Assembly: GCA_023261505.1 (NCBI GenBank)
Contig: JAHFOV010000013.1
Coordinates: 1-41,994 of the forward strand
Length of the DNA: 41,994 nucleotides
Reading direction: 5' to 3'
DNA from: Planctomycetota bacterium
Lineage (GTDB): Bacteria > Planctomycetota > Brocadiia > Brocadiales > Bathyanammoxibiaceae
Shown: positions 1,791 to 24,301 of the stretch, piece by piece
Layout: each line of letters starts with the position of its first letter
How positions within the stretch are numbered: position 1 is the stretch's first letter
Position numbers and translations under genes: made by a program
The notes under the pieces: model-generated
What the model was told of the DNA's origin: nothing
What the model saw: only the letters and a program-made list of their open reading frames with translations
Database searches by the model: none

Positions 1791-2144
1791 TTAAATCTCA
1801 ATCTTTTCTTTAATAAAATTCTTATACCATTCTCGGTACTCTTTTGGGGTGATTAAGTGGATTTCGAAAGGGGCAGAAGTACCGAGCTTTTTTATAAGCC
1901 TTGCCCTGATTTCACTTTTTTGTTTATCGGTTTTTAATTCGGATGAGATTATCAAGATGTCAATATCCTGGGGGACTTCGTTTTTTCTAAGAATTGAGCC
2001 AAAGATAAAGACTTTCACCTTCCCTAAAACCTTTTCGCTCTCTCTTTTAATGAGTTCAGCGTATTTCAAGTAGTTTTTGAAATACTTTTCCTCCCTTTTC
2101 CTCCTGGCTAGCAAAAGGTCGGTAAGGGTTATTGCCTTTTTCAT
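1791..2144 (-). CDS. MNT-type nucleotidyltransferase (antitoxin partner of HEPN)
   Basis: A 117-residue minimal nucleotidyltransferase. The core motif is FGSILRKNEVPQDIDILI: Gly-Ser followed nine residues later by Asp-x-Asp, the metal-binding signature of the pol-beta superfamily, with FEIHLI as the likely third acidic strand. Members paired with HEPN proteins adenylylate or otherwise neutralise the HEPN toxin. Its ATG at 2144 overlaps the HEPN stop codon (ATGA), which implies translational coupling. The N-terminal 40 residues form a basic helix typical of the stand-alone MNT antitoxins. Toxin neutralisation is inferred from the family and the pairing. Confidence 0.85.
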   Translation of the reverse strand: MKKAITLTDLLLARRKREEKYFKNYLKYAELIKRESEKVLGKVKVFIFGSILRKNEVPQDIDILIISSELKTDKQKSEIRARLIKKLGTSAPFEIHLITPKEYREWYKNFIKEKIEI

Positions 2145-2548
2145 ATGGATTCGCTATGCTCACCACAAGATTTTTCTAAAAATCTGATTAGTTTCTTGAC
2201 AAAGTCTTGCATCTTTTCTACGCGATTCTTGCTAAATTCTACTGGTAAATATCTGGAAGTAAGATAAGCCTGCTCCAGGTCTCCAATCACGCTGGCATCC
2301 TTTCTCAAGATTTTCTCAATCTCTAATCTTTTATCAGAGTAGACCTTCGCCAGCCCTCCTAAGAGTTCCTCCAAAGAATGGGTCTTTGGATAATCTCTCA
2401 GTTTTAAGAACAGATAATATTTCAAGTAAAGCTGGGCAACTTGTTCCAGATTAAAGGCCGCCAGATTATAATTTCCTTCCTCAAGATAAAATTTGGCCCC
2501 TTTTAAAAACTCTTCTGCCCTCTTTTTCAGATAATCCACTTTGGCCAT
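2141..2548 (-). CDS. HEPN domain protein (probable toxin)
   Basis: A 135-residue all-helical protein of the HEPN family (higher eukaryote and prokaryote nucleotide-binding). It has the characteristic start (KKRAEEFLKGAKFYLEEGNYNLAAFNLEQVAQLYLKYYLF) and an Arg-x5-His motif in LRDYPKTHSLEELL, the RNase-type site of HEPN toxins. The usual Tyr two residues after His is replaced by Leu, so the AMPylation site known from HepT may differ here. It is followed by the MNT gene with a 4-bp overlap and then by a Phd-like gene. Likely a HEPN/MNT toxin-antitoxin pair; activity is inferred. Confidence 0.85.
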   Translation of the reverse strand: MAKVDYLKKRAEEFLKGAKFYLEEGNYNLAAFNLEQVAQLYLKYYLFLKLRDYPKTHSLEELLGGLAKVYSDKRLEIEKILRKDASVIGDLEQAYLTSRYLPVEFSKNRVEKMQDFVKKLIRFLEKSCGEHSESI

Positions 2549-4786: not shown

Positions 4787-5485
4787 ATGCCTACTACCCT
4801 TTACAAGGCCTTTCAAGCAGAGATTCAAAACAAAGAGTCCGCCTCAGGCGGACAGAGGAGCCTGTGGGCGGTGGCCAGCCTGGAAGAGCCTGATAGAGAG
4901 GGCGATGTAATACTGGCCGGTGGATGGGAACTAGAAAACTACAGGAAAAATCCCGTCATCCTTTTCGCCCACAAGTATGACCAGCCCCCTGTGGCAAGGG
5001 CAGTAGAGATTGGGATCTCACAGAAGGGACTAAGATTCAGGGCCCAATTCCCCAGCCGTAATGAGTATCCCTTTGCCGACACCATATATCAGCTTTACCG
5101 GGGTGGGTATCTCAGGAGTTTCTCGGTAGGCTTTATTCCTAAACTCTGGCAGGACAGGGAGTCTATCTCAGGGGAGGGGCCTGGGGGCAGGCTTTTCAGG
5201 AGACAGGAATTGGTGGAGATTTCTGTAGTTCCTATCCCGACGCATCCTAAGGCCCTGGTGGAGGCACAGAATAAGGGCCTCCTGGGAAGGGAGGAGATTA
5301 GGATTCTGGAGGACATCTCTGCCTCTGCAGAAAACGAGGCTGAAAGGGAGGCCATCGTCAGGTTGGAACTCTTACTTAAGGGGGTGAAAGACCTGAGTTC
5401 TCAGGCGTTCCTCTCCGAGGAAGATTTAGAAGCCGCCGTGGAAAGGGCAATGAAAAAGTCTTTAACTTTTCTCAGACGGATTTGA
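4787..5485 (+). CDS. HK97-family prohead protease
   Basis: A 232-residue U35-type prohead protease that trims scaffold and capsid N-termini during phage head maturation. Visible hallmarks are 'SLEEPDREGDVI' near residue 31, the catalytic His62 in ILFAHKYDQPPVARA, and the serine region LRSFSVGF with the likely nucleophile Ser113, followed by 'VEISVVPIPTHPKALV'. The C-terminal third is helical and may act as scaffold. It lies directly upstream of the major capsid gene, the normal phage order. The palindrome TCCGCCTCAGGCGGA is embedded in frame near residue 17, giving ESASGG just before the conserved domain. The protein looks intact and full length. Confidence 0.93.
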   Translation: MPTTLYKAFQAEIQNKESASGGQRSLWAVASLEEPDREGDVILAGGWELENYRKNPVILFAHKYDQPPVARAVEIGISQKGLRFRAQFPSRNEYPFADTIYQLYRGGYLRSFSVGFIPKLWQDRESISGEGPGGRLFRRQELVEISVVPIPTHPKALVEAQNKGLLGREEIRILEDISASAENEAEREAIVRLELLLKGVKDLSSQAFLSEEDLEAAVERAMKKSLTFLRRI

Positions 5486-5531
5486 CATCTTATATCTGAG
5501 ATATATCTGACATACACAAGGAGACGATTGG

Positions 5532-6701
5532 ATGAGTAAAGAAATCTTGGAAAGAGTAGAAGCGGTAGAAAAGGTACTTAAAGGGATGCCCGATTGTCTG
5601 GAGAAGCACAAGGAGGCCGTGGCCAGCAAGATTGAGGCAGTGGTAAAGGGCAAAGTCCAGGAGGCGGTGTCCACCTGCTTGTCCGAAAAGCTGCATACCA
5701 GGAAGCTGGAGTTTCCAAGAGGTGAGACTTATCTGGATGGTGCTGAGGGATTCAGCATGGGGCGTTTCTTCAGGGCTTTAAGTACTAAGGACTGGACAGG
5801 TGCCCGCACAGAGAAGAAGGCCCTGGGGGAGGCTACTGGCCCCGCAGGTGGTTACCTGGTCCCTGAGGAATACGTAAGAGATGTAAAGGATAGGATTACT
5901 GTCCAATCAGTAGTACGAATGGCAGGGGCCACCGTCTATCCGATGGCTACCGATACATTAAACATCCCTAAGGTCTCAGGTGGTGCCACTGCCTACTGGC
6001 TCGGGGAGAACACCCAGATTCCGGGTTCAGACCCCACCTTCGCGCAGGTGCAATTAGTGGCCAAGGTCCTAGCGGTCATGATAAAGGTCTCTAACCAGCT
6101 CCTTGCCGACAGCTCAGGAGCAGCCGAAGTGGCCATCCGAAGGGATGTGGCAAAGACCGTAGCGCTGGCCGAGGACCTGGCCTTTATACAGGGCTCTGGC
6201 ACAGGTAATGAACCAAGGGGTATAGTCAATACCTCTGGCGTCAATGCGGTCAGTCTTGGGGTCAACGGCGGTACGCCCACCTTTGACACCATCTACGACG
6301 CCCTTTATCAGGTAGAGAAGAACGACGGGGTTGCCACGGCATGGATTATGCACCCAAGGACCAAGAACACCCTCAGAAAGATTAAGGACTCACAGGGTGA
6401 TTATATCTACACTTTGAGCCCGAGCCTGAAGGAGCCGGACAGCCTGGTGGGTATTCCTGTGTATTTTACCACCCAGATCCCCACCAATCTCACCGTTGGC
6501 ACCTCCACGGATTGCTCCTACATACTGGTGGGGCAATTTGACGAGGCTATAATCGGCGAACGACTCGGGATGGAGTTCGCAATAGACCAATCTGGCACTG
6601 CCTTTGAGTACTACCAGAGCTGGATTCGCGCCATAAACCGATTAGACTTCGCCCTGAGAACCCCAGAGGTCTTCTGCAAGGTGACAGGGGTGAGGCCGTA
6701 A
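5532..6701 (+). CDS. HK97-fold major capsid protein
   Basis: A 389-residue capsid protein with ribosome binding site AAGGAGA upstream of the ATG at 5532. Residues 1-95 form a charged coiled-coil delta/scaffold domain. Then EKKALGEATGPAGGYLVPEE marks the conserved start of the mature shell protein, with probable proteolytic cleavage around Lys96/Ala97. Later family signatures include AYWLGENTQIPGSDPTFAQV, the AEDLAFIQGSGTGNEPRGI spine-helix end, and the C-terminal P-domain segment FEYYQSWIRAINRLDF. Domain order, length and neighbours match Caudoviricetes heads rather than an encapsulin, which would lack the delta domain and protease. The frame is intact. Confidence 0.95.
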   Translation: MSKEILERVEAVEKVLKGMPDCLEKHKEAVASKIEAVVKGKVQEAVSTCLSEKLHTRKLEFPRGETYLDGAEGFSMGRFFRALSTKDWTGARTEKKALGEATGPAGGYLVPEEYVRDVKDRITVQSVVRMAGATVYPMATDTLNIPKVSGGATAYWLGENTQIPGSDPTFAQVQLVAKVLAVMIKVSNQLLADSSGAAEVAIRRDVAKTVALAEDLAFIQGSGTGNEPRGIVNTSGVNAVSLGVNGGTPTFDTIYDALYQVEKNDGVATAWIMHPRTKNTLRKIKDSQGDYIYTLSPSLKEPDSLVGIPVYFTTQIPTNLTVGTSTDCSYILVGQFDEAIIGERLGMEFAIDQSGTAFEYYQSWIRAINRLDFALRTPEVFCKVTGVRP

Positions 6702-6774
6702 GTAGGGATTAGGGGACGGGGGTTAGGGGTTAGCAAAATTCTGCTAATCCCTAGTCCCTAATCCCTGACCCCTG
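6702..6774. repeat. Heptamer-array hairpin after capsid gene
   Basis: The left arm, GGGATTAGGGG and related units (6704-6735), faces GCTAATCCCTAGTCCCTAAT (6743-6762) and CCCCTG. The hairpin begins immediately after the capsid stop codon at 6701 and separates the capsid gene from the next phage genes. The same class of array lies at the ends of many host genes in this window. Confidence 0.75.
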
Positions 6775-6795
6775 TTTTAATAAGAGGTAAGGAAA

Positions 6796-6864
6796 ATGCA
6801 AAAGGTCTATAAGAATAAGATGGTAAGGCCCGGACAGACCGTTAAAAAGTCAAAGGGGAAGTAA
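6796..6864 (+). CDS. Tiny basic ORF between capsid and connector
   Basis: A 22-codon frame, MQKVYKNKMVRPGQTVKKSK ending GK, starts at 6796. It is preceded by GAGGTAAGGA at good spacing, and its TAA abuts the ATG of the connector gene at 6865. The strong ribosome binding site and tight packing argue for translation, possibly to couple expression of the connector gene. No family is recognised. Confidence 0.45.
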   Translation: MQKVYKNKMVRPGQTVKKSKGK

Positions 6865-7386
6865 ATGACCCTCACCACACTTGCAGCAGTAAAGGAATAC
6901 CTCGGCCTGGCAGGTACCGGAGAGGATAGCCTCCTTAATCGCCTAATGGATTGGGCTACGAACTTTATCCACTCCTACTGCGGGAGGATTTTCCTTCAAG
7001 GGAACTACGACGAGTATTACGATGGGGATGGTACGGATAGCCTTCTTAGCCATCAATTCCCCATCGTATCAGTGAACTCCCTGGAGGTGGACGGAGTAAT
7101 CCAGGATTCTACAAGTTTTGTCGTCTATGCCCAAATTGGGCTGATAAGACTGAATTGCGGAATCTTCTCAAAGGGGAAGAATAACATAAGACTTCAGTAC
7201 ACAGCCGGCTATGCCTTCTCACCGAAAGACCTTGAACAGGCCTGCATTGAACTTGTAGCCATGAAGTATTATGACAGGGGCAGGGAGAGGCTAGGCGTGG
7301 AAAAGAAGGATAGCACTTCCTTTGCCGCACAGCCACCACAGGAGATTAAACAGGTATTGGACCTTTACAAGAGATACGGAGTTTAG
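6865..7386 (+). CDS. Phage head-tail connector (gp6-like)
   Basis: A 173-residue protein of the HK97 gp6 / phage connector type. It has a helical N-terminus (TLAAVKEYLGLAGTGEDSLLNRLMDWATNFIHSYCGRIF) and a beta section with DEYYDGDGTDSLLSHQFPIVSVNSL, the classic 'YdGdGs..L.l..yPi.sv' motif. A C-terminal helix contains LEQACIELVAMKYYDRG. These adaptors form a ring under the portal. The gene begins directly after the tiny ORF stop and is in the standard position downstream of the capsid gene. Confidence 0.88.
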   Translation: MTLTTLAAVKEYLGLAGTGEDSLLNRLMDWATNFIHSYCGRIFLQGNYDEYYDGDGTDSLLSHQFPIVSVNSLEVDGVIQDSTSFVVYAQIGLIRLNCGIFSKGKNNIRLQYTAGYAFSPKDLEQACIELVAMKYYDRGRERLGVEKKDSTSFAAQPPQEIKQVLDLYKRYGV

Positions 7387-7456
7387 GGGTCAGGGTCTGG
7401 TAAAGTAAATTGATTCCTAACTCCCAACCACCAATACAAATAGAACAAACGCTCTA

Positions 7457-7933
7457 ATGTTAGAAGACATCATAAGACATTTAAGGGCCTTATTGCAGAA
7501 CCAGTTTCCAGCCAAACTAGACCAGATAGAACTGGAAAGGGCGGATGGCGTAACCCTGGAAGATATTAAATCCTTCCTTGTCCAGGGGGGGCAGAAGGAT
7601 AGTCGCCTAAAATATCCAAGCGTCACCATCCTGGGGGAAAATACGACAGCCACCAACGCCCTCTCCCGCCACAGGGAGCTAAAGCACAAGATTTCAATCT
7701 GGATTACCGACAGGGAGGTATCCCCCGACAGTGAACTCTCTACCGCCAGGCTGTGGCGATACGCGGAGGCACTAGAGCGGATACTGGCTAGCGACCCCAC
7801 GCTGGGTGGAAAGGCAGTGGATTCGGTAGTGACCGGCCATGTATATCATCAAAAAGAGGGAGAAGAATCTTTTGTAAGAAGGGCCCTTCTTATAATGGAG
7901 GTTCTGGAAAGGCCTTCCACAAGTAATTATTAA
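7457..7933 (+). CDS. Tail-terminator-like / minor tail protein
   Basis: A 158-residue protein beginning MLEDIIRHLRALLQNQF, the usual start of phage tail-completion proteins that bind the connector. The middle is a beta-rich segment (YPSVTILGENTTATNALSRHRELKHKISIWITD), followed by a helix (LWRYAEALERILASDPTLGG) and ending in VRRALLIMEVLERP. Position and fold pattern suggest a tail terminator or neck protein. No direct diagnostic motif exists, so the specific role is moderate confidence. Between 7387 and 7456 there is only a short TAGGGGTCAGGGTC remnant. Confidence 0.65.
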   Translation: MLEDIIRHLRALLQNQFPAKLDQIELERADGVTLEDIKSFLVQGGQKDSRLKYPSVTILGENTTATNALSRHRELKHKISIWITDREVSPDSELSTARLWRYAEALERILASDPTLGGKAVDSVVTGHVYHQKEGEESFVRRALLIMEVLERPSTSNY

Positions 7934-7949
7934 GCTTTGAAGGAAAGAG

Positions 7950-8213
7950 ATGCCTCACGTAGGAGAATTAGTAGAGGTTTACGCCCCAGCAAGCGGTGAA
8001 GTGGAATGGTTCGCAGTTGACGGTCAAGAAGTAGAACTGGATGAAGTCCTCGGCATTGTCATCGATAAAGAAGGACGCCGTTGGGATATCATTGCCGACC
8101 CAGATCTAAAAGGTGTTAGAGGCATTCTTCTCATCCTACCGAAGGTGGTATGGGAGGTTGGAGTAGGAGCAACCTTGGCCTACATAAGGATAACAAGGAT
8201 TACGAGGGCCTAA
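7950..8213 (+). CDS. Small biotinyl/lipoyl-hammerhead-like protein at end of capsid module
   Basis: An 87-residue protein with a good ribosome binding site (GAAGGAAAGAG) before the ATG at 7950. Its layout (VYAPASGEVEWFAVDGQEVELDEVLGIVID ... GVRGILLILPKVVWEVGVGATLAYIRI) follows the two-fold quasi-repeat of biotinyl/lipoyl hammerhead domains. The modified Lys in an (E)MK turn is absent, so it is unlikely to carry a cofactor. Just past the TAA, another frame reads GPKEADYAKGKAPPMKTKQQ to a TGA at 8276, which looks coding-like; the true C-terminus may extend by a frameshift. A structural role in a phage particle is possible but not shown. Confidence 0.55.
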   Translation: MPHVGELVEVYAPASGEVEWFAVDGQEVELDEVLGIVIDKEGRRWDIIADPDLKGVRGILLILPKVVWEVGVGATLAYIRITRITRA

Positions 8214-12156: not shown

Positions 12157-13329
12157 ATGAAAAGCACTGTATTTTTTATTCCAGCGAAGACTGCGGAAGG
12201 TCTGAGTTCCCTGGCCCAAAAAACCAAAAGACTTCTGGAGGCCCTAGCACCGGCAGGGGCAGGTTTGAAACCTGCCCCTGCAAACGGACCAGGGTTCATC
12301 AAAAAAGACGAACTCATTGGAATAAAGACCACCTTCGGGGAGAGGGGGAACATAGGGCACCTGAAGCCACCAATCATCAGGGCAGCGGTGGAGTACGTAA
12401 AGGCTGGTGGCGGAAAGCCATTTTTAATAGAGACAAATACCTTATATGTAGGGCAAAGGAGTAACGCTGTTGACCATATCCTCCATGCCTATAGCCACGG
12501 GTTTACCCCTGAGGCTGTTGGGGCACCCATAGTCATTGCTGATGGACTAAGGGGCGAGAACGACTACTGCATGCCACTACCAGAAAAGGTTCAAGAGTTT
12601 AAAGGTTCAAGGGTTCAAAGGTTGACCAGAACGGCATTTATCGCCGGGGGAGCAAAGGCGGCCAGTGGCTTTGTTTTTCTCTCACATGTTACTGGCCACA
12701 TGCTGACAGGACTGGGTGCAACGCTAAAGAACATTGGGATGGGACTGGCCTCAAGGGGTGGCAAACTGGCCATGCATTCAGGGGTGGTACCCCAAATCCT
12801 TACAGATAAGTGTAAGGCCTGTGGTCTTTGTGCTGAGTTTTGCCCAGCGGGGGCCATTACTATTAAGGACTACTCCATTATTGACGCCAGTAAATGTATC
12901 GGCTGTGGGGAGTGTCTGGCCGTATGTCCCCATGGGGCTGTGAAGATTTCCTGGGACGAAGATACAGAAAACCTCCAGAAGAAGGTGGCCGAGTACTGCC
13001 TGGCAATACTCAAGGGAAAGGAGAAAAAATCAGTCTTCCTGAACTTCATTATCCACGTCACTGAGCAGTGTGACTGCATGGACAAGGCCTACCCTCCTGC
13101 ATTTGAAGATATTGGAATCCTCGCCTCGCGTGACCCCGTGGCTGTAGAACAGGCAACTGTAGACCTAATTATGGAGCATGTGAGAGAAGATTTCTTCCGC
13201 AAAGCCTGGCCAGACATTGACTACACCACACAGATAGATTACGCCCATAAAATTGGGCTAGGAAATAAAGAGTACGAGCTGCTAGACATTACTAAGGGAC
13301 TGCGAAAGGTAGTAAGAAGTAGGCAGTAG
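12157..13329 (+). CDS. DUF362 ferredoxin-like protein with two 4Fe-4S motifs
   Basis: A 390-residue DUF362 protein. The domain is recognisable in ELIGIKTTFGERGNIGHLKP, GGGKPFLIETNTLY and the C-terminal ILASRDPVAVEQATVDLI. Two clusters of CxxCxxCxxxC type (CKACGLCAEFCP and CIGCGECLAVCP, about residues 215-260) are inserted in the middle. Probably an electron-transfer or redox-maturation protein; the exact role is unknown. Two repeat insertions lie within the frame: a 29-bp palindrome giving AGAGLKPAPA near residues 33-42, and a heptamer-type stretch (GGTTCAA units, 12590-12628) near residues 145-157. The last codons and TAG stop (RSRQ*) also come from a repeat array. Confidence 0.85.
   Translation: MKSTVFFIPAKTAEGLSSLAQKTKRLLEALAPAGAGLKPAPANGPGFIKKDELIGIKTTFGERGNIGHLKPPIIRAAVEYVKAGGGKPFLIETNTLYVGQRSNAVDHILHAYSHGFTPEAVGAPIVIADGLRGENDYCMPLPEKVQEFKGSRVQRLTRTAFIAGGAKAASGFVFLSHVTGHMLTGLGATLKNIGMGLASRGGKLAMHSGVVPQILTDKCKACGLCAEFCPAGAITIKDYSIIDASKCIGCGECLAVCPHGAVKISWDEDTENLQKKVAEYCLAILKGKEKKSVFLNFIIHVTEQCDCMDKAYPPAFEDIGILASRDPVAVEQATVDLIMEHVREDFFRKAWPDIDYTTQIDYAHKIGLGNKEYELLDITKGLRKVVRSRQ
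12253..12281. repeat. 29-bp palindrome inside DUF362 gene
   Basis: GCAGGGGCAGGTTT, one central base, then its exact complement AAACCTGCCCCTGC. The 29 bp sit in the coding frame without breaking it, in the poorly conserved N-terminal linker. It belongs to the same class as 15886-15913 (inside mqnA), 35213-35240 and 22921-23060. Confidence 0.85.
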
Positions 13330-13392
13330 GGAGTAGTCCGCCTGAGGCGGATTAGCACTTACTGCTTTGTGCTTACTATCACTTTCTACAGC
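13305..13392. repeat. Array hairpin with embedded TCCGCCTGAGGCGGA palindrome
   Basis: Units AGTAGGCAGTAGGGAGTAG (13314-13332) carry the DUF362 stop codon. They are followed by the short palindrome TCCGCCTGAGGCGGA, then facing TTACTGCTTTGTGCTTACTATC. Two repeat classes are therefore nested in one intergenic space ahead of the phosphodiesterase gene at 13423. Confidence 0.7.
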
Positions 13393-15396: not shown

Positions 15397-15422
15397 GCAT
15401 TAAATAGAAAACCTTGACCTCC

Positions 15423-16301
15423 ATGGAAAAAAGCCTGAAGGTTGGGGTAGTGCCCTACCTGAACGCAAAGCCCTTAATTGCGGGGATGGAAGAGGCAGGG
15501 GCAAAGCTAAATTTTGTTGTGCCCTCCAAACTGCCTAACCTCCTGGAGCAAGGAGGAGTGGATGTAGCCCTGATACCTTCCATAGAATATCTGCGTGGCC
15601 GCCCCTTTTTTGTTATCCCGGGCATATCCATTGCCTCCAGGGGAGCAGTGAGGAGTGTATTGCTATTCCTGAAAACGCCCGCAATAAAAGATATCAAACG
15701 GGTTGCCCTGGATGAAGCCTCCTTGACCTCTGCCACTTTGGTCGGGATTATCCTCCAAGAGAGGTATGGCCTGCCACCTTCCAAGATAGAGTATATCCCC
15801 TGGCCTGGTGGTCAGAACCTAAATGGTATACACGCTGATGCAGTACTGGTTATTGGGGATAACGCTATGAAGATGTCGGTAGGCGGTAGGGGCACGTTGC
15901 AACGTGCCCCTACACAAGATGTCTGCATGACCCTCGACCTGGGAGCAGAGTGGAAGGCCCTTACGGGACTACCTTTTGTCTACGCCCTGTGGGTTACCTC
16001 TAGAAAGGAGTTTCTTGGCAGTGCCACGAGGCTATTATCGGAGGCAAAGAGGAGGGGATTAGCAACTCTTGATGAGATTGCCAGGAGAGAGGCCAAAAGG
16101 CTGGGACTGTGGCAAGAAATCTGCTTGAGATACCTTTCTGAGAATATCCACTACGAACTGGGGGAGGAGGAGATGGCAGGGCTAAGGCGGTTCTACCGCT
16201 ATGCGCTGTCTATGGGCCTAGCTTCAGAAGGAGTTAATCTTGATTTTGGAAGTAAGAAAAATATTAGAGAAGCCGCTTTCCAGAAAACGGATAGGATTTG
16301 A
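15423..16301 (+). CDS. mqnA: Chorismate dehydratase, futalosine pathway
   Basis: MqnA converts chorismate to 3-enolpyruvylbenzoate, the first committed step of futalosine-route menaquinone synthesis. Family marks are VGVVPYLNAKPLIAGM at the N-terminus, VDVALIPSIEYLRG, LDEASLTSATLVGIIL and LTGLPFVYALWV. The ATG at 15423 is preferred over an upstream in-frame TTG at 15414. A 28-bp perfect palindrome (15886-15913) is inserted in frame at residues 155-164, giving GRGTLQRAPT between the conserved DAVLVIGDNAM and TLDLGAEWKALTG, a surface-loop position. The 3' end overlaps mqnC by 62 bp in a different frame. Confidence 0.92.
   Translation: MEKSLKVGVVPYLNAKPLIAGMEEAGAKLNFVVPSKLPNLLEQGGVDVALIPSIEYLRGRPFFVIPGISIASRGAVRSVLLFLKTPAIKDIKRVALDEASLTSATLVGIILQERYGLPPSKIEYIPWPGGQNLNGIHADAVLVIGDNAMKMSVGGRGTLQRAPTQDVCMTLDLGAEWKALTGLPFVYALWVTSRKEFLGSATRLLSEAKRRGLATLDEIARREAKRLGLWQEICLRYLSENIHYELGEEEMAGLRRFYRYALSMGLASEGVNLDFGSKKNIREAAFQKTDRI
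15886..15913. repeat. 28-bp perfect palindrome inside mqnA
   Basis: GTAGGGGCACGTTG (15886-15899) is followed directly by its exact complement CAACGTGCCCCTAC. It is in frame within mqnA. The outer GTAGGGGC is shared with intergenic copies, whereas the six inner bases differ at each locus, as expected for a family that keeps pairing while the inner sequence changes. Confidence 0.9.
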
Positions 16302-17310
16302 GGAGGGTCTAGCCCTCATTTCCTCTAAGGACCTCCTCACCCTGGGAAGGGCTGCTGAGGAATTTTCCAGAATCCTTCATCCCGAACCCTACCGAACATA
16401 CGCTATAGACAGGAACATTAACTATACCAATATCTGCGTGGCAAGGTGCCGTTTTTGTGCCTTTTCTAGAGACCTGGGTGAGAAGGAGGCTTACACAATT
16501 AGCGAAGAAGAACTCTTTCAGAAAATAAAAGAGACAGTAGAACAGGGAGGAACCCAGATACTTATGCAGGGAGGATTGCATCCCCATCTTCGACTGGATT
16601 TCTATGAAAAGCTTCTTCGTTCAGTAAAAAAGCAATTCTCTATACACATCCACTCCTTTTCACCACCAGAAATAATTCATTTCTCCAGGCTGGAAGGGTT
16701 GCCCGTAGGGGAGATAATTTTACGGCTAAGAGAGTCTGGGCTGGACTCCATTCCTGGTGGTGGGGCAGAGATACTTGTGGACCGCTGCAGGGGGGAAGTA
16801 AGTCCTAAAAAATGTACAGCAGAAGAATGGCTAACAGTCATGCGTGAGGCCCACAAGCTAGGCATGAAGACCTCAGCCACAATGATGTTTGGCCATATAG
16901 AGACGCTTGAGGAGAGGGTAGTCCATCTGGATAAAATTCGTACACTTCAGGAGGAGACGGGTGGTTTCACGGCCTTCATACCCTGGCCCTTTCAGCCCAG
17001 GAACACCCAGCTTGGACACCTCTCCCCTGTCGGAGGATTCGAGTACTTAAAGACCTTGGCCGTTTCCAGACTCTATCTGGACAATATTCCAAACATTCAA
17101 TCTTCCTGGGTAACTCAGGGACCAAAGATAGGGCAATTGGCCCTTAAATTCGGTGCTAATGATATGGGCAGCACCATGATTGAAGAGAATGTGGTGCGGG
17201 CCACAGGGATAAGTTTTCGCATGACAAGGGAAGAGATAGTACGCCTTATAGAAGACTTTGGATATAAGGCCCGCCAGAGGGATTTTTACTACAGAGTAGC
17301 CAGTAGATAG
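16240..17310 (+). CDS. mqnC: Cyclic dehypoxanthinylfutalosine synthase
   Basis: A 356-residue radical SAM enzyme that cyclises dehypoxanthinylfutalosine in menaquinone synthesis. It has the family signature IDRNINYTNICVARCRFCAF with the CxxxCxxC cluster ligands, GGTQILMQGGLHP, RESGLDSIPGGGAEIL and FIPWPFQPRNTQL. The start is TTG at 16240, supported by AGAAGGAG six bases upstream and lying inside the 3' end of mqnA, so the two are translationally coupled. The last residues (VASR) and the TAG stop are made of the heptamer repeat GTAGCCAGTAGATAG, suggesting the original C-terminus was replaced. Confidence 0.93.
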   Translation: MILEVRKILEKPLSRKRIGFEEGLALISSKDLLTLGRAAEEFSRILHPEPYRTYAIDRNINYTNICVARCRFCAFSRDLGEKEAYTISEEELFQKIKETVEQGGTQILMQGGLHPHLRLDFYEKLLRSVKKQFSIHIHSFSPPEIIHFSRLEGLPVGEIILRLRESGLDSIPGGGAEILVDRCRGEVSPKKCTAEEWLTVMREAHKLGMKTSATMMFGHIETLEERVVHLDKIRTLQEETGGFTAFIPWPFQPRNTQLGHLSPVGGFEYLKTLAVSRLYLDNIPNIQSSWVTQGPKIGQLALKFGANDMGSTMIEENVVRATGISFRMTREEIVRLIEDFGYKARQRDFYYRVASR

Positions 17311-17745
17311 TGGCAAGTAGCGAGTAGATTAAAATTAAACATTAAAATTCTTACTTGTTTTTCATTGGAGGCTTTTAATAAGGCCGTAAAGCATCCGTCC
17401 TACTTCTTCAACCTTGTTTATCAATCGCTGGTTATCCTCTAGATATTTCAGGTCTTTTGATAATATTAGGTAGTATCGCAACTCCTCAAGAGAAGCCTGG
17501 GCTACATTGTAAAAATTAGATTTATCCCGAAGAGTACGCTTTGTGAAGCCTTCTGCAATGTTTGCAGGGATTGAGACCGCAGCCCTCCGCATTTGAGAAA
17601 CGAGTCCAAATTTTTCTCCTGAGGGAAAATGACTTGTAATGCTGTAGACCTCCAGAACCAGTCCATGGGCCTTCTTCCAGACCTCAAGGTCTTCAGATTT
17701 TTTTGCCTTCATTTTCTACTGACTACTAGCTACTGGCTACTTCGT
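17296..17745. repeat. Inverted repeat arms enclosing the S23 gene
   Basis: The left arm GTAGCCAGTAG (17296-17306) is exactly complementary to CTACTGGCTAC (17730-17740), and pairing extends to 15 of 16. The left arm forms the end of mqnC, and the right arm forms the end of the convergent DUF542 gene. The 116-codon four-helix-bundle gene lies between, starting only 18 bases from the right arm. Confidence 0.75.
17362..17712 (-). CDS. Four-helix-bundle protein, S23 (23S rRNA intervening-sequence) family
   Basis: A 116-residue helical protein with the family signatures EDLEVWKKAHGLVLEVYSIT, FGLVSQMRRAAVSIPANIAEGF, FYNVAQASLEELRYYLILSKDL and LINKVEEVGRMLYGLIKSL. Relatives are encoded inside 23S rRNA intervening sequences or free in the chromosome; they form pentameric four-helix bundles and their function is unsettled. 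Here the gene is outside rRNA but sits between inverted repeat arms (17296-17306 and 17730-17740), recalling the stem-bounded architecture of the rRNA insertions. It is on the minus strand, downstream of the DUF542 gene. Confidence 0.9.
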   Translation of the reverse strand: MKAKKSEDLEVWKKAHGLVLEVYSITSHFPSGEKFGLVSQMRRAAVSIPANIAEGFTKRTLRDKSNFYNVAQASLEELRYYLILSKDLKYLEDNQRLINKVEEVGRMLYGLIKSLQ

Positions 17746-17937: not shown

Positions 17938-18014
17938 ATTAGTAGCCAGCAGATAGTAGCGAGTAGACAGTAGGTCACCCCATACCTACTACCTGCTGCT
18001 TACTGTCTACTATA
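17938..18014. repeat. Heptamer-array hairpin upstream of DUF542 gene
   Basis: Left units AGTAGCCAGCAGATAGTAGC and GAGTAGACAGTAGG (17941-17974) face CCTACTACCTGCTGCTTACT and GTCTACT (17985-18011). They form a long stem around a short GTCACCCCATA loop. As transcribed from the minus strand it precedes the DUF542 gene. Confidence 0.75.
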
Positions 18015-18582: not shown

Positions 18583-20016
18583 ATGAAAAAGTTAATTCTA
18601 ATAAACCCCCATCCTGAAGTACATTATGGCGAAGAAAACGTTACCGTTCTGGTTCAGATGCCCTTGAATCTGGGCTACCTGGCGGCGCTTACCCCAAGAG
18701 ATAAGTGGACAGTAGATATCATAGATGAGACCATAGAACTCGCCGTAGATTATCGTACTGGTGAGCTCCGCTTTGATGGGGCCGACCTTGTGGGCGTCTC
18801 TGCTGTGAGTTATCAGGCCCCCAGGGCATACGATATTGCCAGGGCATGCAGGAAACACAATATACCTGTGGTCATAGGTGGCCCTCACGCTTCCACTATA
18901 CCAGATGAAGTGACCCAGTATGCAGACGCAGCACTAATTGGAGAAGCAGAGAGTGTTTGGGGAGACCTGTTAAGAGACCTGGAGAACGGGCAACTGAAGA
19001 AACAATATTTTGGCGGCCTTACTCCACTTGAGAGATACAGGGATTTATACCCAGACAGGGAACTGCTGAAGCAGAAATATCACTATAAATATTCCTCCAT
19101 CATTACTACGCGGGGCTGTCCCAACCGGTGCGACTTTTGTGCAGTACCCCTCTTCCAGGGGAAGAAGTACCGTGAGCGTCCGGTAGAGGACGTCCTAAAG
19201 GAGATGGCCTCCACAAGCTATAAAGGGCTAATGTTTGCTGAGGACAACTTCTACGGCCACAGCAAAAAATCAAATGAGCGAGCCAGGGCACTCTTCAAGG
19301 GCATGACGGAAAGGAATATTATCAAGGACTGGTTCGGCTTTACCGCCCTCAATACCGCCTTTGATGAAGAAACCTTGAAGTATATGGCCTCTAGCGGATG
19401 CCTGGGCATCCTAATAGGAATAGAGTCCCTGGATGAGGAAGTTCTGAAGGGAATAAATAAGTATGTTAATCTCAGGATCGGTGTAGAAAATTATAAAAAG
19501 GGCATTGACAACCTGCACCGAAATGGGATTATCTGCTGGGGCTCGGTAATCTTTGGGGCAGATGGTGATACCAAGGACAATTTCAAGAGGATGACAGATT
19601 TCACCCTTGAGGCGGGTATGGACATCCTAACCTTTGGTATCTACACCCCAATGCCTATGACCTCCAGCTTTCACAGGCTCATGCAAGAAGGGCGCATCTT
19701 CCGCACCCATTTCCCAAAAGAATGGTTCTACTACAACTCCAACCACCTGGTTTTCACCCTAAGGGACATGACCATTGAAGACCTCATTGAAGGGCTAGAA
19801 TACGTCTACGAACACCTCTACTCCAAGGAGGCCTTAAAGGCCCGTTTTAACCGCACCCTAAAAGAAACAAATAATCCCAAAAACGCTATGTTCGCCTACC
19901 GCATAAATATTGACTGGAGGACAGTCTTTAAATCAGTAATAGACGACCTTAAGGCCCTGTATGATTCGGGGATGTATCCAGGGGTGAAAGGCCATTTTGC
20001 AGTAGGCAGTAGATAG
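18583..20016 (+). CDS. B12-binding-type radical SAM protein
   Basis: A 477-residue class B radical SAM enzyme. The N-terminal Rossmann domain (about 1-150: LILINPHPEVHYGEENVTVL, GADLVGVSAVSYQAPRAYDIA, PVVIGGPHAST, ALIGEAESVWGDLL) is the cobalamin-binding type. The radical SAM core follows with TTRGCPNRCDFCAVPLFQGKKYRERP (CxxxCxxC), then LMFAEDNFYG and GILIGIESLDEEVLKGINK. Class B members methylate or rearrange unactivated carbons in lipids, cofactors and natural products; the substrate is not evident. The final VGSR and TAG stop derive from a GTAGGCAGTAGATAG repeat. Confidence 0.88.
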   Translation: MKKLILINPHPEVHYGEENVTVLVQMPLNLGYLAALTPRDKWTVDIIDETIELAVDYRTGELRFDGADLVGVSAVSYQAPRAYDIARACRKHNIPVVIGGPHASTIPDEVTQYADAALIGEAESVWGDLLRDLENGQLKKQYFGGLTPLERYRDLYPDRELLKQKYHYKYSSIITTRGCPNRCDFCAVPLFQGKKYRERPVEDVLKEMASTSYKGLMFAEDNFYGHSKKSNERARALFKGMTERNIIKDWFGFTALNTAFDEETLKYMASSGCLGILIGIESLDEEVLKGINKYVNLRIGVENYKKGIDNLHRNGIICWGSVIFGADGDTKDNFKRMTDFTLEAGMDILTFGIYTPMPMTSSFHRLMQEGRIFRTHFPKEWFYYNSNHLVFTLRDMTIEDLIEGLEYVYEHLYSKEALKARFNRTLKETNNPKNAMFAYRINIDWRTVFKSVIDDLKALYDSGMYPGVKGHFAVGSR

Positions 20017-20184
20017 TAGACAGCATACAGGGGTAAATGAAAAGTTCAAATTCCAAAGCTCAAAATCCAAATGAAATCCAAAGCTCAAATTTTTGGAGTT
20101 TGGATTTTGGATTTGATTTGGGACTTTGAAATTTGGATTTGATATGGTTTTTCCTACCTACTGTTTGCTGTCTACTGTCTACTC
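19996..20184. repeat. Nested double inverted repeat
   Basis: The outer arms are AGTAGATAGTAGACAGCATA (20007-20026 region) and, facing it, CTGTTTGCTGTCTACTGTCT (20160-20179), matching at about 21 of 23 over the full arm. Inside is a second inverted repeat with a different unit: CAAATTC, CAAAGCT, CAAAATC, CAAATGA (20046-20090) against TTTGGATTTTGGATTTG and related units (20099-20145). Two array types are thus stacked in one hairpin. It separates the convergent radical SAM and mlaD genes and carries the radical SAM stop codon. Confidence 0.8.
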
Positions 20185-20185
20185 C

Positions 20186-21214
20186 TCACTCTGCCTCTCG
20201 CCCTTTTTTAATGCTCTTTTGTATCATTCTCCTTAGAAGAAAACTCCTCTGTACCCCGCCCATCAGGCTTTTGAGGTCTTCGTAAAGACCTGGGTCGTTA
20301 ATGATTGCACCGAGTGTACCTTCGCCCCTGGCGGTCTTTTCCGTGACGACCTTCAGGTTGGCAGAAATCTCAGCAAGGTTATTCAAAAGGGCCTTCTTCT
20401 CTGGGTCGAAGAGGAGAGAAGGCAAAAGACCCTGCTCTGTTTCCATAGATTGGTTGATCTTTTTGGACATAAGGGCCAGCGCCTTGACACCATCCCTAAA
20501 TTCCTTATCGTATAAAATGGTGTGGAAGGCATTATCCCCCTCGCGCATCTCACGTGTTATACCCTTTAAGGACTCTGTAGTAGCAAAGAGGTTGTCAAAC
20601 ATCTCTTTCCCTTTAGGGTCATAGACCAGGGAATGGAGGATACCCTCACCTTTCTGAACCGACTCTATACTAGCTCTCAAAGCGGAGGTAGCTCCGGCAA
20701 GTGTCTCTATAAGCCTGGTCTCCTCTAGTTTGGTAATACTCCTGGTAAGGCTGGAGAAGGCGTCCAGACTTCCCTCAAAGGCCGTAAAATAGTCAAGTGC
20801 CTCCTTGCTGTTTAAATAAGCCCCTTCTTCTACGATGGGCTTATCCGCACTACCAACGGTAATCTCTATGTAAGGTTCCCCAGTAACATAACTCAGCACT
20901 TTGATAGAGCAGACAGAATCCATGCGTATTCTTTTGCGGAAGCGTTTATTTATCTCCATTTCCACTTCTATAAGTTTACTAGAAGGATCCTCGGGAAACA
21001 CAACCTTCTTTACATGTCCTACACTAACCCCCGCAAGGCGCACAGGAGAGCCCTCCATCAAACCTTTCGCATTCAGGAAAGCGGTCTTCAAGGTATATGT
21101 TTGGGCGAAGTAGCCCCTCTTGGTGCCCAAGACAAAAATAGAGACCCCAAGCCCAGCCAGGGCCACCAGGAGAAATATCCCAGCCCTTATCGCTATTACC
21201 TTTTCCCTTTCCAT
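20186..21214 (-). CDS. mlaD: MCE-domain lipid transport substrate-binding protein (MlaD family)
   Basis: A 342-residue inner-membrane-anchored protein. A single TM (AGIFLLVALAGLGVSIFVLG) is followed by one MCE/MlaD domain (about 38-125: LKTAFLNAKGLMEGSPVRLAGVSVGHVKKV, DSVCSIKVLSYVTGEPYIEITVG). A long helical C-terminus carries three repeats of the form 'LxxSLLFDPExKxLxxNLxxxsxxLKxVTExxxxGEGTLGAIIxDPxLYEDL'. MCE hexamers shuttle phospholipids across the periplasm. It is the third gene of the mlaE-mlaF-mlaD set on the minus strand, starting about 170 bp after mlaF across a repeat-filled gap. GAAGGAA precedes the ATG. Confidence 0.92.
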   Translation of the reverse strand: MEREKVIAIRAGIFLLVALAGLGVSIFVLGTKRGYFAQTYTLKTAFLNAKGLMEGSPVRLAGVSVGHVKKVVFPEDPSSKLIEVEMEINKRFRKRIRMDSVCSIKVLSYVTGEPYIEITVGSADKPIVEEGAYLNSKEALDYFTAFEGSLDAFSSLTRSITKLEETRLIETLAGATSALRASIESVQKGEGILHSLVYDPKGKEMFDNLFATTESLKGITREMREGDNAFHTILYDKEFRDGVKALALMSKKINQSMETEQGLLPSLLFDPEKKALLNNLAEISANLKVVTEKTARGEGTLGAIINDPGLYEDLKSLMGGVQRSFLLRRMIQKSIKKGREAE

Positions 21215-23593: not shown

Positions 23594-24301
23594 GGTTATT
23601 TGGCGACCCTTAAACAGGGATTAGTGACCAGTAGATAGTAAGGAGTAAGCAGTAGGCACTAAATAGTAAGCACGAACTAACCACTGCCTACTGCCTACTC
23701 CCTACTGCTTACTGTCTACTTTTAACCAACCCCTGGATTCAGTATGACAGTGTCTCTACACCATATCAATGGAGAAACATTGGCTGTCATTATACGCCAA
23801 ATGCAGATAATTTCAGCACTTTATTTATTGGCAGGAGACCTTTGAAAAAGTCTACGGTAAAGCCACTCGAGGCGGATTGTCATTGCGAGGGCGTAAGCAA
23901 CTAACTCAGCAAACAATTAAAATCAGGTTTTTTCTTTTCGCATCATGACATATTTTGAACCTGAGGCAATCAGAAACCTTCACCTCTTTGGGCAGATTTT
24001 CTAGTTCTTCTAAGCTCTCAACCCCAAAAAGACTAAAAAAATAAATAAAGGCAGACCCCCGGGGCGTAAAGGGCCTTTCCAGGGAAGACCTGGAATATGC
24101 CAGGTCTAAAGGGGGCAAGAGTTGATGAACCTGCGGCAGAGAAATCCGAAGAGCCTACAAAATAACAGCGTACTTCTGTGTCATTCTGAGCGAAGCGAAG
24201 AATCTCCATGTTTAGCTGAGATTCTTCTCCGCCTCAGGCGGATCAGAATGACATTTTTGGCGTTTTTAGAGGCATCGTAATTTGTCATTCCCTTCCAAAA
24301 G
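23594..24301. other. 700-bp intergenic region rich in repeats, no confident gene
   Basis: Contents in order. A long heptamer hairpin occupies 23620-23720 (AGTAGATAGTAAGGAGTAAG facing CTACTGCTTACTGTCTACT). CTCGAGGCGGATTGTCATTGCGAGG (23867-23891) is a palindrome remnant. A 70-codon minus frame (23906-24118) contains FFSLFGVESLEELENLPKEV, faintly like the C-terminal tail of ScpB, and could be a gene fragment. An imperfect palindrome, CCAGGGAAGACCTGG with GCCAGGTCTAAAG, is at 24078-24111. Finally, 24178-24252 holds TCATTCTGAGCGAAGCGAAG facing GATTCTTC, interrupted by TCCGCCTCAGGCGGA, and TCAGAATGAC. Confidence 0.6.

Follow-up and report, generated by a model that had tools for sequence, protein, structure and literature searches.

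An S23 four-helix-bundle gene between inverted heptad arrays in a planctomycete: a probable small mobile element of gene 3′ ends

Genes of the S23 family (23S_rRNA_IVP, 'four helix bundle protein') are common and the fold of their products is solved, although to our knowledge no function has been assigned to them. Hairpins composed of heptad repeats are among the commonest unexplained repeats of several bacterial groups. A contig of a Planctomycetota bacterium (JAHFOV010000013.1, assembly GCA_023261505.1), analysed here over a stretch of 41,994 nucleotides that is termed the window, brings the two together, as an S23 gene lies between two inverted heptad arrays. This locus raises the question of whether such a gene and the repeats around it form a single entity and, if so, of what kind. 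The features concerned are as follows.

16240-17310, plus strand: mqnC, convergent neighbour, with its 3′ end within an array (TIGR03699, 495 bits)
17295-17329, plus strand: 3′ arm of the S23 element, inverted, five AGTAGNN units, doubling as the last codons of mqnC
17362-17712, minus strand: intact S23 / 23S_rRNA_IVP four-helix-bundle gene, 116 aa (PF05635, TIGR02436 and bAvd PF22296 profiles)
17714-17741, minus strand: 5′ arm of the S23 element, four AGTAGNN units, reaching up to the S23 start codon and forming the last ScdA_N codons
17726-17920, minus strand: gene of a ScdA_N/DUF542 protein, co-directional with and upstream of S23, ending within an array (PF04405, 51.9 bits)

The S23 protein matches PF05635 over its full length (128.8 bits, cut-off 33.8) and TIGR02436 with 123.5 bits, with a secondary profile match to bAvd PF22296 (44.5 bits, cut-off 40). 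Its profile matches are confined to IVP, bAvd, DivGenRetAVD and related four-helix models, and no nuclease, polymerase or recombinase domain was recognised in it. The repeat unit of both arms is a degenerate 7-mer, AGTAGNN. Across the outermost 12 bp (17295-17306 and 17730-17741) the arms are perfectly paired, and 15 of their first 16 bases match. A preliminary description of this DNA had given perfect arms of 11 bp; the perfect pairing and the 15-of-16 extension stand, whilst the length was one base short because the count began at 17296. The enclosure of the gene by inverted arms, also proposed there, is real, as judged by the profile scores and by an arm pairing above chance: the arm-pairing score of the window gene is 32, and scores of at least 30 were reached by 65% of 79 S23 genes and by 0.3% of 632 control intervals in the survey set out below. 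The arms were likewise correctly seen as the ends of both neighbours, the reading frames of MqnC and of the ScdA_N/DUF542 protein terminating inside the arrays with the C-termini YRVASR and NEVASS, respectively. The element measures about 0.45 kb, and the S23 transcript can be folded with its arms paired around the ORF, at a stability that is modestly unusual (z −1.8). The complementary stem around an S23 ORF that typifies 23S rRNA intervening sequences (IVSs) is thus present; however, the window yielded no rRNA gene, its only RNA-gene match being a tRNA, and the S23 flanks are protein genes. Nor was rRNA found at 14 surveyed S23 loci without strong arms, and a relic of an rRNA IVS was accordingly ruled out.

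The same repeat word recurs in the window at four further places.

13311-13338, plus strand: single AGTAG array forming the end of a ferredoxin-like ORF (12157-13329)
17941-18011: AGTAG hairpin without S23, beside the S23 element (arrays 17941-17975 on the plus and 17984-18011 on the minus strand)
20001-20190: AGTAG inverted pair around a second inverted pair (AAATCCAAA, 20062-20152), nested hairpins with no gene
23630-23720: AGTAG/AGTAA hairpin without S23

The inner word at 20001-20190, AAATCCAAA, is similar to the one in the arms of a divergent S23 gene (L217) in a relative, G005. The window also contains a perfect palindrome, GTAGGGGCACGTTG/CAACGTGCCCCTAC (15886-15913), in frame within the ORF at 15414-16301, and a like palindrome lies within a truB-like gene of G005 (C11, about 156.8-157.4 kb); palindromes of this type are a second repeat family, which inserts in coding sequence. 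Elsewhere in the window, genes for a HEPN protein and then a nucleotidyltransferase-domain protein (1791-2548, minus strand) are likely to be a HEPN-MNT toxin-antitoxin pair, and ORFs at 4787-8213 resemble a phage head module (prohead protease, major capsid, head-tail) in translations compared by eye only.

How general such arms are was addressed by searching a single genome of each species with a profile, which gave 80 S23 loci from many phyla, these being the best matches to the query. Each gene received as its arm score the best complementary match found between its two 300-nt flanks, and the controls were 632 size-matched intervals, not genes, on the same contigs. A score of at least 28 was found at 71% of 79 S23 genes and at 0.95% of the controls (Fisher p about 3e-57), so that the survey for flanking inverted arrays that the preliminary description had called for came out in its favour. 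Addition of the S23 genes of 58 relatives raised the set to 186 distinct genes, 143 of which have inverted arms (score at least 26). The remaining 43 have a periodic array on one or both sides in 74% of cases, compared with 4% of control windows, bringing the S23 genes with an array on at least one side to 175. The repeat unit is 7 nt long in 84 genes, 8 in 18, 9 in 14 and 10 in two, and the median arm comprises 4.6 units. In 392 kb of the array-rich G005, strong inverted-repeat brackets at S23-like spacing enclose four intervals, three of which are exactly its three S23 genes in that sequence, the fourth being a different palindromic repeat in the truB-like gene.

The upstream gene is co-directional with S23 in 98 of 106 cases, against a baseline of 69%, and the median distance between its stop codon and the point where the S23 domain begins is 91 nt. 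In 115 of 135 genes, the sense strand of the 5′ arm is rich in purines. The S23 protein evolves under purifying selection, as shown by dN/dS values of 0.30, 0.10 and 0.08 in the three pairs of genes that are informative; two closer pairs differ at too few positions to be used.

The words that make up the arms are diverse, including AGTAG, AACAGG, AGTGG, TAGGG, GCGGAAT, TCAGGAGTC, AGAAGTT, AGATTTG and many more. On sequence comparison, the word varies by lineage and tracks the S23 protein rather than the genome. Motif similarity is about 0.04 between proteins below 50% identity, 0.25 at 60-70% and 0.48 above 70%, although, array and gene being physically linked, co-inheritance alone could yield this correlation. 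Pairs of at least 50% identity that span families or phyla have a motif similarity of 0.130, compared with 0.0475 when shuffled (maximum 0.064 of 2000), and none of 75 same-genome S23 pairs below 50% identity shares a word. A further expectation, that exact arm complementarity is itself preserved, was not supported: arms within a hairpin score 32.2 and arms of different hairpins 31.4, in nine hairpins only, and unit-by-unit complementarity was dropped as a conserved feature. With pairing inside a hairpin no better than pairing between hairpins, it is the word that is conserved and not the pairing, as expected for a candidate protein binding site.

Beyond the S23 genes, the same words are dispersed through the genomes as gene-less hairpins. 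The S23-bearing G005 has 190 heptad arrays in 392 kb, compared with one in 400 kb of G002, an S23-less member of the same family. AGTAG gives 117-242 hits in four S23-bearing family members and 18 in a fifth, and none in any of four S23-less members, from which AACAGG is also absent; this absence is confounded by kinship because the S23-less genomes span only two genera. AGTGG arrays occur mainly in genomes whose S23 gene has AGTGG arms, and cluster beside that gene. G005 itself has five S23 genes, whose arms make up 4% of the library and are the best match of 33% of 128 dispersed arrays in that genome; each of the five words occurs in dispersed form. Several of the other words correspond to S23 genes in sister genomes, and the genome has more words than S23 genes. 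The suggestion that S23 might be linked to the array family as a whole thereby gains substance, the dispersed arrays of an S23-bearing genome matching its own S23 genes. The window's genome (G000, 2.5 Mb) has four PF05635 matches. Two of them (C41, C56) seem broken, one by an internal stop and one being partial, which is what a decaying mobile gene would leave.

Homologues of the window type (69-71% identical) lie at unrelated loci: between mqnC and scdA_N, between V-ATPase B and D (G005, with AACAGG arms) and between HD-GYP and bioA (G007, with AGTAG arms). Two relatives have AGTAG arrays but no S23 gene at the mqnC site, where one further relative has a different palindrome. The element is also missing from the V-ATPase site of a 94%-identical relative, which again carries another palindrome. 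Since the corresponding sites are occupied by other repeats, no direct insertion was seen in the family to which the window belongs. The comparison of occupied with empty sites advocated in the preliminary description nevertheless yielded five pairs, all from cyanobacterial plasmids, the window locus itself not being one of them. In the clearest pair, S23 and its arms are present in Trichormus variabilis ATCC 29413 plasmid C and in Scytonema NIES-4073, and at about 97.6% identity Tolypothrix PCC 7601 and Nostoc linckia have an empty site that consists of AAAAAGTAATTAACAAAT alone. When occupied, the site becomes AAAAAGTAAT, element, GTAATTAACAAAT, with a 5-bp GTAAT target duplication that overlaps the upstream stop codon. 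A decayed, truncated copy of the element lies at this very position on plasmid E of Nostoc C052. The Trichormus 5′ arm is 14 bp, or two units, longer than the Scytonema arm of the same insertion (L300 and L308), a difference from which arm units appear to be gained and lost quickly.

The other pairs are one between cas10 and cmr3 (occupied in Picosynechococcus PCC 7003, empty in PCC 7002), two at sites in Nostoc and Aulosira plasmids and one at an integrase-hypothetical gene site in Calothrix. All four insertions lie at or just before the upstream stop codon, and no duplication can be claimed for them because their junctions are ambiguous or target bases have been replaced. With a clean 5-bp duplication at one of five sites, and ambiguity or loss of target bases at the others, target duplication is not claimed as a consistent feature of the element. 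What presence and absence at otherwise matching sites demonstrates is that S23 and its arms insert as one unit; hairpin-bounded insertions associated with S23 thus exist outside rRNA, as had been surmised, and arms are general around these genes. S23 genes also occur inside CRISPR operons, namely, at the loci L303 and L316, the cas10/cmr3 case in Picosynechococcus PCC 7003 and a gene between cas6 and cas4 in Pseudanabaena galeata. Gene-less hairpins behave similarly, one of the TCAGGAGTC word being present or absent at another Nostoc plasmid gap. On two plasmids a second hairpin is nested in the first, with different loop contents; the nested hairpins of L311 and L324 (Nostoc plasmids) have the same arms and two different loop contents, as if arrays could capture or exchange cargo.

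Taken together, S23 and its two inverted heptad arrays probably constitute one small mobile element that inserts at gene 3′ ends, and this element decays in place and has many gene-less hairpin relatives with the same word. The main competing account is that the arrays propagate themselves, by replication slippage, template switching or a host transposase, and that S23 is captured cargo with no role in mobility. We consider this unlikely, though it deserves more weight than any other rival: S23-less hairpins do insert alone, with varied loop cargoes, relatives have arrays without S23 at the mqnC site, and one genome has more words than S23 genes. Capture, however, would predict diverse cargo rather than a single family that throughout many phyla comes with a word peculiar to the lineage; S23 is the sole gene family found between tandem-repeat arrays among the strongly bracketed intervals of the array-rich genome, and the two main words are missing from the four S23-less family members. 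Somewhat less likely again is movement of the element as RNA, with a reverse transcriptase acting in trans and S23 serving in the manner of Avd from diversity-generating retroelements (DGRs). The matches of S23 to the bAvd and DivGenRetAVD models would fit this, as would the position of the elements at mRNA 3′ ends, co-directional with the upstream gene, but the orientation is equally explicable by selection for read-through expression, and a genome-encoded reverse transcriptase partner was set aside for lack of any RVT_1 (PF00078) match in four array-rich family members (G000, G001, G005 and G007; assemblies 77-96% complete).

That the arrays instead terminate transcription of the flanking genes or stabilise their mRNA, with S23 an ordinary accessory gene between them, seems very improbable. 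Such a role would suit hairpins at gene ends and a transcript that folds with its ends paired, yet it does not explain why matching sites are occupied or empty, why insertions are nested and decay where they stand, or why words are specific to lineages, and elements also lie within operons such as cas10-cmr3 and V-ATPase B-D. Base composition or the chance occurrence of simple repeats has next to no likelihood, even though heptad repeats are common in some genomes (PMC4692102): the AGTAG pattern has 216 hits in the window's genome and the same pattern read backwards has one, and both the 1% against 71% of the control comparison and the disparity in arrays between G002 and G005 point the same way. 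Chance and composition were therefore excluded as the source of the arms. A Y1 transposase was also discarded as driver, as matches to it are found in array-free and array-rich family members alike and are weakest in the window's genome.

The element shares features with several known systems. The 23S rRNA IVSs of Coxiella and Leptospira have the same protein family in a hairpin-bounded insert and have been termed selfish elements; IVSs, however, reside in 23S rRNA and are removed by RNase III, whereas the window element is not associated with rRNA, and S23 elements occupy mRNA 3′ regions, have arrays on both sides and are accompanied by dispersed gene-less hairpins. In the Coxiella IVS, the S23 ORF is directly preceded by three GACAGAT heptads, the number of which varies (PMC4990558); this fits the same anatomy inside rRNA. 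The resemblance to REPIN-RAYT systems lies in a gene flanked by a repeat that is dispersed genome-wide as gene-less hairpins, as found here, and in a word that co-varies with the protein. RAYT genes mobilise REPINs in trans. In contrast to S23, a four-helix bundle with no known catalytic domain that is flanked by degenerate tandem heptads, RAYT has the catalytic domain of an HUH transposase, and the REPs are short palindromic sequences; the S23 profile search revealed no Y1/HUH tyrosine transposase, and Y1_Tnp matches in the family genomes do not track the arrays. Avd proteins act in retroelements as accessory proteins, and the Avd of DGRs belongs to a homologous four-helix-bundle family (PF22296, as above), but no reverse transcriptase was found in the four array-rich family members, the window's genome being without a PF00078 match nearby or elsewhere. 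MITEs, too, are short non-autonomous inverted-repeat inserts, and one S23 element has a 5-bp target duplication; unlike MITEs, S23 elements end in variable tandem arrays instead of fixed terminal inverted repeats, and no parent transposase was found for them. Degenerate tandem heptads are shared with the cyanobacterial STRR heptads and with the GGGAATC and GGGGATT heptads of Xanthomonas and Nostoc, respectively, which are described as G-quadruplex-forming, mostly of four units, with about 70 convergent inverted pairs per Xanthomonas genome, and without a link to S23 or mobility (PMC4692102).

Because it has neither the rRNA setting of an IVS nor the transposase of REPIN-RAYT, and no reverse transcriptase as in a DGR was found, the element is regarded as a new kind. 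It resembles rRNA IVSs and REPIN-RAYT systems in anatomy and spread, and if IVSs are viewed as the same element it would become a variant of the IVS. A search of the open-access literature found no work that ties S23 genes to heptad arrays or to movement outside rRNA.

A mechanism can be proposed, in which we infer that S23 recognises the arms and mobilises the element. Expression would come from read-through of the upstream gene. The structures of the S23 homologues 2GSC and 2RLD each contain five chains as deposited, and the Xanthomonas S23 protein is a toroidal homopentamer according to Lin 2006, as cited in PMC4990558; the numerical match between a five-chain ring and arms of four to five units is suggestive only. 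The gene behind 2GSC, XCC0516 of Xanthomonas campestris, is predicted on this proposal to lie between GGGAATC arrays. An S23 pentamer, as a relative of Avd, might bind roughly five units per arm, probably as single-stranded RNA or DNA, and could so bring the two element ends together, whereupon a host enzyme would copy or insert the element, replication or repair enzymes being the default guess. Hairpins of the same word may be mobilised in trans as non-autonomous copies, in a RAYT/REPIN-like manner, and S23-bearing 23S rRNA IVSs would then be elements that chanced to land in rRNA. The broadest form of this proposal is a phylum-spanning class in which a pentameric, non-transposase S23 protein recognises its own heptad arms and drives the spread of both the gene and the gene-less hairpins, with rRNA IVSs and the unexplained bacterial heptads belonging to the same system; it is put forward tentatively, as a possibility that we judge a little short of evenly balanced.

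The tie between S23 and the arrays gives both a testable role and supplies dozens of matched pairs of protein and candidate site, each with its own word. If the proposal is true, S23 elements would add to the known mobile elements a kind that has no transposase gene, the origin of S23-bearing rRNA intervening sequences would be explained, and the S23 family would provide small nucleic-acid-binding rings whose target can be read from the flanking DNA.
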